Shown here: positions 45,219 to 54,445 of the stretch, piece by piece | How the letters are laid out: every line of letters starts with the position of its first letter | Position numbering within the stretch: position 1 is the first letter of the stretch | Made by a program: the position numbers and the translations under genes | The notes under the pieces: generated by a model | The model's input: only the letters and a program-made list of their open reading frames with translations | Database searches by the model: none | What the model was told of the DNA's origin: nothing | Origin: Actinocatenispora rupis | GTDB lineage: Bacteria; Actinomycetota; Actinomycetes; Mycobacteriales; Micromonosporaceae | Assembly (NCBI RefSeq): GCF_016861975.1 | Contig: NZ_BOMB01000012.1 | Coordinates: 248,001 to 312,000 of the forward strand | Direction of reading: 5' to 3' | Length of the DNA stretch: 64,000 nucleotides

Positions 45219-45564
45219 ACGCAGATCTTGAATGCCCCATCGTTGTAACGCTGGCGGCTAACGGACGCGAAGCTGCGCTTCCCGGCGGTGCGTGACGGAG
45301 ATGCGAGCGGCAGGTCGGCTGACCTTTGACCAGCAGGGCACCCGGCCACGGCTAGGCTGCGACGGGCACGCCCGGATCGCCCGTTCGGCCCGGTCTCTGG
45401 CACAGATCCCGCCACGGGCACGCCGCGGCAGGTGTCGCCGTGTCGCAGGTGCCGCCGCCGGAGTCTGCGCCGCACGGGCCGGATCGGGCAGCCCTCGAAA
45501 ACGAGGATGGGACTGGGTTTGCTCGTGAACGTGATCGGCTGCAAGCCGGCGAGCTGAGGGAAAG
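45219..45564. other. 346-bp gene-free stretch next to tRNA-Asn
   Basis: No reading frame here is convincing. It lies directly downstream of the tRNA 3' end on the minus strand, where integrative elements usually insert. TGACCTTTGACC near 45320 is a short direct repeat. I cannot identify an integrase or an att duplication of the tRNA 3' end inside the window. Confidence 0.4.
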
Positions 45565-45637
45565 CTCCCGCGCTTGGACTCGAACCAAGAACCTGCCGGT
45601 TAACAGCCGGCTGCTCTGCCAATTGAGCTACGCGGGA
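45565..45637 (-). tRNA. tRNA-Asn(GTT)
   Basis: A 73-nt cloverleaf can be drawn on the minus strand. The acceptor stem is TCCCGCG/CGCGGGA with discriminator G. The D-arm is GCTC-AATTGGCAG-AGC. The anticodon stem GCCGG/CCGGC has loop CTGTTAA giving anticodon GTT. The T-arm is CTTGG-TTCGAGT-CCAAG. CCA is not encoded. Confidence 0.95.
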
Positions 45638-51095: not shown

Positions 51096-51629
51096 TCAGC
51101 TCGCGGAGGCGGTGGCGCGGGCCTGGGCGAACAGTTCGCCGACGAGGTCGTGGTCCGGGCCGATCACGGCCGTGCCCTCGTCGTACCGCAGCTCCCAGCT
51201 CAGGCCGTCCCGCCCCGGTACCCGGCGGGCGACGATCCGGACCCCGCCGTTCGGCAGCTCGTGGTGCGTGGAGTACGCGACGCTGCGGGTGACGCGCACC
51301 CGCACCTGGTACGGCAGCTCACCCGGGTCGCCGAGCCGGAAGTGCAGCGGCTCGTCGTCGGCGTACACGTCGGCGGGGGCGTCGGGCGCGCTGCCGGCCT
51401 CGCGTACCAGCCGGGCCGGGGTGACGACCAGCTCGCGGCCGGACCACGTCGCCTTGTGGATCTCGTGCCAGCCCAACCGGTCCCGGCCCGGCAGCCACAG
51501 GCCACGGTTGGTCGCGATCAGGTACCCCGACTCGTACGGCGCCCACGCCGCCACGTGCTCACCGGACTCGAACTCCCGCTGCGCACCGGCCGGCAGCCGG
51601 TGCCGACGGAACCGCGCCAGCAACCCCAC
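51096..51629 (-). CDS. Conserved hypothetical protein coupled to dnaG
   Basis: A 177-residue protein without membrane segments. The first ~70 residues form beta strands with PYESGYLIATNRGLWLPG and WHEIHKATWSGRELVV, like a PH-type or bacterial PH-like domain. The GTG overlaps the dnaG stop by one base (TAGTG), so the two are translated together. I do not know a function. Confidence 0.78.
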   Translation of the reverse strand: MGLLARFRRHRLPAGAQREFESGEHVAAWAPYESGYLIATNRGLWLPGRDRLGWHEIHKATWSGRELVVTPARLVREAGSAPDAPADVYADDEPLHFRLGDPGELPYQVRVRVTRSVAYSTHHELPNGGVRIVARRVPGRDGLSWELRYDEGTAVIGPDHDLVGELFAQARATASAS

Positions 51630-54445
51630 TACAGCCCCCCGACCGCCTGCTCGCGCAACCCGCGCGCGTGCTGCTCCAGCGACGCCAGCTCGCCGAACAG
51701 CGCCAGGTACTCGTCCTTGCGCTCCACCGGGTTCATCCGCTGCACCTTCGACTTGATGTCCCGGATCCGCCGCTCCACCTCGGGCAGCTGGAGCCGCGCC
51801 AACATGATCGACACGTACCGCGGGTCGGGCTCCGCGTCGTACCGCAACGGTTCGACGGCCAGCTCCGACACCAGCGCCTGCGCGGCCAGATCGGCCGTGG
51901 CCGACCGTACCTCGTCGATCCAGCCCGGCCCGCCCGCCGTCGCCGCCGCGCCGCCCACCGCCGCGATCGCCTCGCGGATCGCCCGGTGCATCGGGTACCC
52001 GTACGGCGTGCCGTCGATCGCGTCGAACAGCGGACCCGCCAGCGCCGGGTACTGCACGGCCAGCTTCAGCGCCTCCCGCTCCACCAGCGCCTGCGGCCCG
52101 TCCGGGCGCTGCGCCGGACGCGGACGCGCCGGCGCCTCCGGACGACCCGGCTTCCCGCCCGCGCGCAGCGCGTCGTTGACCGCCCGGCGCGCCTCCTCCA
52201 CCTCGATACCGATGTGGCCGGCGAGCTTCTGCACGTACCGCGGGCGGAGGTACTCCTCCTTGATCGCGGCGACCATCGGCGCCGCCGACCGCAGCGCGAA
52301 CGCCTGCCCCTCCGCCGTGTCCAGGTCGTACCGGGAAAGGACGCTGCGCAGCGCGAAGTCGATCAGCGGCTCGGAGTCGGCGACCAGGTCACGCACCGCC
52401 GCGTCGCCCTTCGCCAGCCGCAGCTCGCACGGATCCATGTTGTCCGGCCCGATCGCCACGCTCGTGTGCGCCACGAACTTCAGGTCGTCGGCGAACGCCC
52501 GCAGCGCCGCCTTCTGCCCCGCCGCGTCCCCGTCGAACGTGAAGATGATCTCGCCGCGGAACTCGTCCGAGTCCATCAACAACCGCCGCAATACGCCGAT
52601 GTGGTCGTCGCCGAACGACGTGCCGCACGTCGCCACCGCCGTCGGCACCCCCGCCAGGTGACAGGCCATCACGTCCGTGTACCCCTCGACGATGACGACC
52701 TTGCCCTGCTTGGCGATCTCCCGCTTCGCCTGGTCGATGCCGTACAGCACGTGGGACTTCTTGTAGATCGGCGTCTCCGGCGTGTTCAGGTACTTCGGGC
52801 CGTCGTCGGAGTCGAGCAGCTTCCGCGCGCCGAAGCCGATCACGTCACCCGACAGGTCCCGGATCGGCCACATCAGCCGCCCCCGGAACCGGTCGATCAG
52901 GTTGCCCGACCGCGCCTCCCGCACCAGACCCGCCGTGATCAGGTCCTTCGCGTCATACCCCTTGGTACGCAGGTGTCGCGTCAGCGCGTCCCACGAGTCC
53001 GGCGCGAAACCGCACTGGTACCGCGCGGCGGCCTCCCGGTCGAACCCGCGCGCCGCCAGGAACTCCCGCGCCACCTGCGCGTCCGGCGCGGCCAGCCGTT
53101 CGGCGTAGAACGCGGCGGCGTCGGCGTGCGCGGCGACGAGCACCTTCTTGCTGCCGCCGTCACCGCCCCGCGGGCCGCGCGGGCCGACACCCTCCTCGTA
53201 CCGCAGGGTGAGGCCGACCATGCCGGCCAGCCGCTCCACCGACTCGGTGAAGCTCAGGTGGTCGACCTCCATGAGGAAGGAGATCGCATCCCCACCTTTC
53301 CCGCATCCGAAGCAGTTTCCGGTGAGGATGTTGTCTTCCAGGACGAAAGCGTGCCCGTCCTCGACCTCCGCGCAGAACACTTCTTCGACGCGGTCGGTAC
53401 GCTCCACCGACTTGACGACCCAGCCGCGGCGGTCGAACTTCTTTTCGGCAGCGTTGAAGCGTTGCCGATGCTCCTCGATGAGGAAGAAGTCCTCGGTCAG
53501 GTCGGTGTTCGCGAAGTGGACCCGGTAGAGGCTCGACTCTTCCCGGCCCGGGAACCCGGCGCGACGTTGCTGGGTGATGCCGTACGTCCCGATGCCGAGG
53601 CGGGTGCAGAGATCGCGGACGAACTCAAGGTTCGCACGCTTTGCCGAGTTGAGCATGACGGTGCCGTCCGCGGCGACGCAACCATCGGCGGCAAAGTATC
53701 CGGCGAGCCAGCCCAGCAGGTACGGCACCGACTCGGTCAGCTCGGGCAGCTTCTTGAAGAAACGCGGAAGGTGGTGGACCAGAATCGCGTTGTCGTGGCC
53801 GGCTGCGGCACTCGTGAAGCTGTTCGGGAACCACTTCCGGAGCTGCGCGTCCTTGTCGCCGACGAGCAGGGCCACGGCACCGCTGGAGTTCTCCGTGCCA
53901 TCGCCGAAAGTGATGCCGTGTGCGATACCGAACGGCGACAGTGTGCTCTGCCGCGAGTGGTTCGGCGGGTACACGTAGGCCAGTCGGTGATCAGGCCGCA
54001 GATCAGCGGTCAGCACCTCCCTGCGACTCCTCCGATCCGCACCGGAACGCACGAACCACCGGTGTTCGTCGGTCGCGTAGAGATCCTTCGTCTGGCCATT
54101 ACGGCCGACCCGCACCCGCCAGAGTCGCTGCGTCCCGTACGACTTGAACGGTGCCTTCACCCATCGCGCCTGCGGCCCGAGCACCTCGTGGACGCCACCG
54201 GCGAGGTCTCTGATCTCACGCACACCCTCCCGCGTGAGAACCCGCGTCTCACCCGCGAGGCAGTGATAGAAGCCTCGCTCAGGAGTGACGTTGAAGCTGG
54301 GCGACTTCTCCTCGTGGAACGGGCACAGGCCCTTGAGGTTGCCGCCACCGGCCGGGCGCAGCGTCACCTGACCGCCGATCACCTCGACGATCGACACCTT
54401 CTCCCGTACCGCGGCGATGTCCGCGGCGACGATCCGACCCGCCAT
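51629..54445 (-). CDS. dnaG: DNA primase interrupted by an intein
   Basis: A precursor of 938 residues; removing the 316-residue intein leaves 622, the normal size for primase. The zinc finger is Cys41/His44 (CPFHEEKSPSF), then FYH, then after splicing CFGCGKGGD with the last two Cys ligands. The primase core has FLAARGFDREAAARYQCGFAP, FRGRLMWPIRDLSGDVIGFGAR, and the Toprim motifs VIVEGYTDVMACH and FTFDGDAAGQKAA. A C-terminal DnaB-binding region follows. ATG 54445 is chosen, with GGAGGTGG a little upstream. It primes lagging-strand synthesis. Confidence 0.96.
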   Translation of the reverse strand: MAGRIVAADIAAVREKVSIVEVIGGQVTLRPAGGGNLKGLCPFHEEKSPSFNVTPERGFYHCLAGETRVLTREGVREIRDLAGGVHEVLGPQARWVKAPFKSYGTQRLWRVRVGRNGQTKDLYATDEHRWFVRSGADRRSRREVLTADLRPDHRLAYVYPPNHSRQSTLSPFGIAHGITFGDGTENSSGAVALLVGDKDAQLRKWFPNSFTSAAAGHDNAILVHHLPRFFKKLPELTESVPYLLGWLAGYFAADGCVAADGTVMLNSAKRANLEFVRDLCTRLGIGTYGITQQRRAGFPGREESSLYRVHFANTDLTEDFFLIEEHRQRFNAAEKKFDRRGWVVKSVERTDRVEEVFCAEVEDGHAFVLEDNILTGNCFGCGKGGDAISFLMEVDHLSFTESVERLAGMVGLTLRYEEGVGPRGPRGGDGGSKKVLVAAHADAAAFYAERLAAPDAQVAREFLAARGFDREAAARYQCGFAPDSWDALTRHLRTKGYDAKDLITAGLVREARSGNLIDRFRGRLMWPIRDLSGDVIGFGARKLLDSDDGPKYLNTPETPIYKKSHVLYGIDQAKREIAKQGKVVIVEGYTDVMACHLAGVPTAVATCGTSFGDDHIGVLRRLLMDSDEFRGEIIFTFDGDAAGQKAALRAFADDLKFVAHTSVAIGPDNMDPCELRLAKGDAAVRDLVADSEPLIDFALRSVLSRYDLDTAEGQAFALRSAAPMVAAIKEEYLRPRYVQKLAGHIGIEVEEARRAVNDALRAGGKPGRPEAPARPRPAQRPDGPQALVEREALKLAVQYPALAGPLFDAIDGTPYGYPMHRAIREAIAAVGGAAATAGGPGWIDEVRSATADLAAQALVSELAVEPLRYDAEPDPRYVSIMLARLQLPEVERRIRDIKSKVQRMNPVERKDEYLALFGELASLEQHARGLREQAVGGL
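53315..54262 (-). other. LAGLIDADG intein inside DnaG
   Basis: 316 codons, beginning with Cys (CLAGETRVLTREG, block A) and ending FVLEDNILTGN before Cys (block G). ATDEHRWFV is block B with its His. LLGWLAGYFAADG is a LAGLIDADG endonuclease motif, and VFCAEVEDGHAFVLE is block F. The terminal His-Asn pair is replaced by Gly-Asn, as in some active inteins. The insertion lies between His61 and the third zinc ligand. Its codons are visibly less GC-biased than the flanking primase sequence, a sign of transfer. Confidence 0.93.

Follow-up and report, generated by a model that had tools for sequence, protein, structure and literature searches.

Inteins in the bacterial primase DnaG are of a known kind. 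DnaG appears among the hosts in a published intein table, in a passage that considers neither site, class nor zinc (PMC5874633). Another intein of a replication enzyme, Mycobacterium smegmatis DnaB intein 1, carries a Trp-Cys-Thr triplet and is presented as a model of a zinc- and oxidant-sensitive splicing gate on replication (PMC7360933, PMC6195587). It is located at the helicase ATPase site, has a penultimate His and, being of class 3, is expected to do without a nucleophile at residue 1. The intein in the recombination directionality factor of mycobacteriophage Bethlehem, compared here by its description alone, has a natural penultimate Gly and splices; it has been treated as class 1 (PMC5050341). 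We analyzed a 64,000-nucleotide stretch of the Actinocatenispora rupis genome (contig NZ_BOMB01000012.1, positions 248,001 to 312,000; hereafter the window), in which the dnaG gene is split by a 316-residue intein. This element shares with DnaB intein 1 the replication-enzyme host and the triplet, and with the Bethlehem intein, which resides in a different host protein, the penultimate Gly; it differs from DnaB intein 1 in its host site, in having Gly in place of His and in possessing Cys1. The mixed-class signature is the unusual part of the window intein, and no paper on the zinc-ligand position of a DnaG intein was found in the literature searched.

The intein comprises residues 62-377 of the precursor, with the junctions FYH and CFGC, and separates zinc ligand 2 (His44) from ligand 3 (Cys378) of the DnaG zinc ribbon. 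The Pfam CHC2 model (PF01807) is split into two matches flanking the intein. The Cys and His of the CPFH motif (Cys41 and His44) correspond to zinc ligands 1 and 2 of the CHC2 family. Cys1, Thr64 and His67 (the TxxH of block B), the terminal Asn316 and the Cys+1 of an intein are all present, and the in-frame insertion is evident from the unsplit ribbons of three congeners (G001-G003) and of 288 among 297 genomes of the same family. A preliminary description of this DNA had proposed a 316-residue LAGLIDADG intein at FYH/CFGC, exactly between ligands 2 and 3, with Cys1 at the position of ligand 3 and Gly as the penultimate residue. The two PF01807 pieces and the motifs confirm the first point, the linear sequence the second, and Gly315 in block G the third. 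Its view that splicing is required to bring CPFH and the CFGC knuckle into one contiguous segment also holds, and the splicing blocks A, B, F and G, which it regarded as decisive, are present on alignment, as are both LAGLIDADG motifs.

This element is very probably a mobile homing intein from a family of alleles at the dnaG site. Its two LAGLIDADG motifs lie at about residues 112-122 and 182-194; it matches PF14528 at 2e-8, and its fold match to PI-PfuI spans 302 residues. PI-PfuI (1dq3) and PI-SceI, intein endonucleases of other host proteins, are 14-16% identical to it. The conserved zinc-knuckle codons of intein-free dnaG are the expected cutting site of the endonuclease, and the cut gene would then receive a copy of the intein. 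The Hint domain would excise the intein from every primase molecule, joining FYH to CFGC and completing the zinc ribbon. We infer endonuclease activity and also splicing in vivo, the latter because primase is essential and the host genome (7.83 Mb, 81 contigs, estimated 96.8% complete) showed no DnaG-type zinc ribbon other than the split one; the lack of another ribbon would also make splicing obligatory. Both catalytic Asp residues are present in 47 of the 51 dnaG inteins. Asp121 is lost in the other four, one of which has no Asp193 either. Judging from its sequence, locus L119 is a case of endonuclease decay: compared with L118, the nonsynonymous divergence (dN) is 0.003 in the C-extein and 0.181 in the endonuclease part, and Asp121 is lost in L119.

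Table 1. Features of the split dnaG gene in the window. Motif counts refer to 83 inteins (51 in dnaG, 32 other), including the window intein and two exact duplicates (81 different sequences); the partial-match loci L042, L049, L079, L080 and L081 were excluded from counts and trees, and L131 was passed over because it has the flanks of L044.
Feature	Position in window	Strand	Remarks
dnaG precursor gene	51629..54445	minus	938 codons + stop, open throughout
N-extein, 61 residues	54263..54445	minus	Holds zinc ligands Cys41 and His44; PF01807 first piece
CPFH codons	54314..54325	minus	Ligand 1 = 54325..54323, ligand 2 = 54316..54314; from sequence
Intein, 316 residues	53315..54262	minus	Hint splicing domain + LAGLIDADG endonuclease
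Intein Cys1 (block A)	54260..54262	minus	Occupies the ligand 3 position of the precursor sequence; Cys in 83/83 full-length aligned inteins, window included
Block B TDEHRW	54056..54073	minus	Thr64, His67, Trp69 (class 3 triplet W), each in 83/83
LAGLIDADG motif 1 GIAHGITFGDG	53897..53929	minus	Asp121; Asp in 47/51 dnaG inteins
LAGLIDADG motif 2 LLGWLAGYFAADG	53681..53719	minus	Asp193; Asp in 50/51 dnaG inteins
Block F VFCAEVEDGHAF	53345..53380	minus	Cys297 (class 3 triplet C, codon 53374..53372), in 83/83 inteins; His304, in 50/51 dnaG inteins (motif alignment)
Block G ILTGN	53315..53329	minus	Thr314 (triplet T), penultimate Gly315, Asn316, each in 51/51 dnaG inteins
C-extein, 561 residues + stop	51629..53314	minus	Starts CFGC; PF01807 second piece
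CFGC of C-extein			Cys+1 = zinc ligand 3, also the splicing nucleophile; Cys+4 = ligand 4

Among the relatives recovered from genome contigs, 43 of 46 are found in dnaG at the same site, in Nocardioides, Jiangella, Geodermatophilaceae and a few others; the scan used patterns drawn from the window intein, which favours close kin. Among the 43, two are not full-length: L042 is at the end of its contig, and L049 (Blastococcus sp. TF02A-26) is a 156-residue mini-intein, free of the endonuclease and with the splicing motifs kept. Of the three further relatives, one is located in a deaminase (L044) and one in an anaerobic ribonucleotide reductase (L045); the third, L048, was left unscanned. Related dnaG genes with and without the insertion, a comparison that the preliminary description had proposed, were both found. 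In the host's own family, the zinc ribbon was detected in 297 of the 300 genomes searched and is split in nine, window included, a count read partly from match number and E-value and not from the sequences; the eight besides the window proved to be full-length precursors. The three congeners have no split ribbon. In one of them (G003), dnaG occupies two overlapping frames (L123, L125), an apparent frameshift or sequencing error. Within the family of a Nocardioides genome, 13 of 143 primase-positive genomes (149 searched) have a split ribbon, judged by E-value pattern only. A phylum-wide sample gave an intein match at 1e-10 in 3/396 genomes, window included, and one of the other two is in dnaG. 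This patchy distribution favours a selfish element, and the window intein looks like a mobile allele of a dnaG-site family. An intein of 47% identity is also carried by the Skermanella rosea plasmid NZ_CP086115.1 (48372-49298), in a gene annotated as a MobF relaxase.

Relatives were also found in phage primases. Of two scans of viral contigs, one yielded 32 loci and the other 152, of which 80 were kept; the site reading excludes a single viral row with incomplete coverage. Phage primase inteins directly precede the first Cys of a CxxC matching ligand 3 in L156, L050, L053, L052/L078 and L143/L144. The zinc ribbon is firm in L156 (site FAH^CFGC, PF01807 at 7e-26) and weak in L050 (0.009, below the cut-off); in L053, L052 and L143 it consists of the CxxC pattern, Pfam giving no such domain. 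L156, L050, L053, L052 and L143 are DNA primase or primase/helicase according to PHROGs, and L078 and L144 are placed in primase by flank resemblance. On a tree of 94 inteins, for which the dnaG set was thinned and identical sequences were removed, the primase-site state needs at least six changes, a number obtained on weakly supported deep branches and without a shuffled control. L130, an actinobacterial dnaG intein, falls outside the main dnaG group on this tree. These data suggest that host and phage primases have received inteins at one zinc-knuckle site on several occasions. In genes resembling 3'-phosphoadenosine 5'-phosphosulfate (PAPS) reductase (L058) or in ribonucleotide reductase genes, further relatives stand before a cysteine, and Cys is found at +1 in all but three of the 26 host-site clusters. 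Sites before CxxC are weakly enriched (p 0.039). Since Cys+1 is nearly universal in these inteins, they are expected to favour conserved cysteines, and many such cysteines are metal-binding or catalytic. The choice of site is probably explained by high conservation and the Cys+1 nucleophile, instead of by selected zinc regulation. In another viral locus, L158 (IMGVR_UViG_3300045256_000188), with flanks resembling ribonucleotide reductase, two inteins of this family are arranged head to tail with zero extein residues in between: ILTGN, the end of the first, runs straight into CLPAEEEI, the start of the second, so that residue 1 of the second is the +1 residue of the first.

The nearest relatives of the intein are not those of the primase. 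Median identity to 19 Nocardioidaceae and Jiangella rows, one of which is a metagenome-assembled genome (MAG) named only Actinomycetota, is 65.9% for the intein and 49.9% for the C-extein. The order is reversed for eight own-family rows, with 53.5% for the intein and 64.6% for the C-extein (three rows with C-extein alignments below 300 residues were dropped). On the extein tree, the window groups with its own family (Shimodaira-Hasegawa-like approximate likelihood ratio test, 99); on the intein tree, from which L130 was omitted, it belongs to a 22-row set of Nocardioidaceae, Jiangella and two Geodermatophilaceae MAGs (support 100/96). An intein nearest to Nocardioides/Jiangella in a primase nearest to its own family suggests horizontal transfer, which is likely, not proven, with a presumed Nocardioides/Jiangella-like donor. 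This mismatch is better evidence for horizontal arrival than the lower guanine-plus-cytosine (GC) content of the intein, from which the preliminary description had deduced a recent arrival. That deduction fails: GC carries no weight here, because the intein is lower in GC than the C-extein in 50/50 other dnaG inteins. Several observations weigh against horizontal homing. Holding the window intein with own-family inteins is not rejected by the approximately unbiased test (p 0.11). No long co-conversion tract is seen, the flanks of the window resembling those of the congeners. Before CFGC, the window has FYH and the congeners VFY, while Nocardioides types mostly end in His (FFH, MYH); FYH is a weak clue, as it also occurs in 4/39 empty-site own-family rows, and a co-converted tract is thus not established. 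The 81 contigs and estimated 96.8% completeness also leave a little room for a second primase in an assembly gap. In favour of a mobile element, the synonymous divergence (dS) of both intein parts exceeds that of the C-extein by a factor of 1.5 or more in 7 of 12 close pairs, although this excess could reflect a weaker codon bias in inteins.

The unrejected own-family grouping leaves space for vertical inheritance, with the intein already present in the family ancestor and lost from most lineages. We consider this highly unlikely, given the reversed identities, the placement of intein and extein on the trees and the predominance of unsplit ribbons in the family. A decayed intein that has lost splicing is hardly credible. 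The missing penultimate His would speak for it, but Gly occupies this position in every dnaG intein aligned, all other catalytic residues checked are present, no DnaG ribbon besides the split one is found in the genome, and dN/dS of the splicing domain is 0.02-0.23 in 12 pairs of relatives. The phage intein with a native penultimate Gly splices, and its Gly-to-His change accumulates precursor (PMC5050341); by this analogy, the penultimate Gly is not in itself a defect.

With respect to the splicing mechanism, the window intein mixes the hallmarks of two classes. The class 3 triplet (Trp at B12, Cys at F4, Thr at G5) is represented by W69, C297 and T314; Trp69 and Cys297 are found in all 83 inteins, and Thr314 in 27 of the 32 others in addition to the 51 in dnaG. 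Cys1, a class 1 residue (Cys1 or Ser1), is just as constant, whereas class 3 inteins have no class 1 nucleophile at position 1 (PMC3196547). The preliminary description saw in Cys1 the initiator of splicing; Cys1 is indeed there, but this account was incomplete, and given the triplet Cys1 may not be the sole initiating nucleophile. Inteins combining Cys1 or Ser1 with the triplet, one of them from Nocardioides, were reportedly described by Tori and Perler in 2011. We favour Cys1 as the putative starter (class 1), assisted by Cys297, because it is retained in every relative aligned. It is possible, though we think it the less probable course, that this is a class 3 intein merely keeping a Cys at position 1, in which Cys297 would attack the N-junction first and Cys1 would be dispensable. 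The constancy of the triplet fits such a course, as does its alignment with the corresponding residues (W, C, T) of the Ala1-type P-loop intein of the host's dnaB, where overall pairwise scores are poor (-4, -1). Against it, class 1 inteins with Cys at F4 are mentioned in the literature, and folds fail to separate the classes. The family would be useful for testing whether splicing can be initiated by Cys1 as well as by the class 3 triplet.

A further question is whether splicing is regulated. For M. smegmatis DnaB intein 1, it is reported that zinc inhibits splicing in the host and in vitro, that the block F cysteine is a zinc ligand in the crystal and that peroxide inhibits via a disulfide (PMC7360933). 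With this precedent and Cys297 at the equivalent place in block F, zinc or oxidants might, in line with the proposal of the preliminary description, act on the junction cysteines of the window precursor (a Cys41/His44 half-site with Cys1, plus Cys297, Cys+1 and Cys+4), pausing splicing and holding back primase and replication under stress. Two inteins, one of them at the P-loop, interrupt the dnaB of the same genome, which adds to this picture, as helicase and primase would both need splicing. By analogy, a zinc- or redox-sensitive gate on replication is plausible, yet the distribution lends no support, and a conditional gate of this kind seems unlikely to us: the intein is scattered in the family and absent from the congeners, most dnaG inteins keep both catalytic Asp residues, and no pairing with dnaB exists, a dnaB intein occurring in 2/8 other own-family genomes with a dnaG intein versus 5/13 without one. 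In addition, zinc inhibition is reported for several inteins and alone gives no sign of selection for a gate. Quite unlikely is the broader proposal that a dual-Cys intein family repeatedly colonised zinc-ligand cysteines, chiefly the CHC2 knuckle in primases of hosts and phages, and that zinc, bound in the precursor by the native half-site together with the junction cysteines, stalls splicing and makes primase maturation a zinc/redox checkpoint of replication. If zinc did stall splicing, metal supply would control replication priming through a selfish element, providing a clean test of inteins becoming regulators. In the view of the preliminary description, the zinc finger of primase could not form before splicing. 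When a 477-residue fragment of the precursor was modelled with AlphaFold2 (38 rows, no metal), the N-extein half of the ribbon, residues 31-60, came out at low confidence (predicted local distance difference test score 55-58), a result that speaks neither for nor against zinc binding by the precursor.

The own dnaB is located outside the window (G000:C23:213558-217580, L198). Its P-loop intein starts with Ala and is of class 3 type by its W, C and T, and its second intein starts with Cys after DLRESG. The sole tRNA gene in the window, according to ARAGORN, is a tRNA-Asn at 45564-45637.
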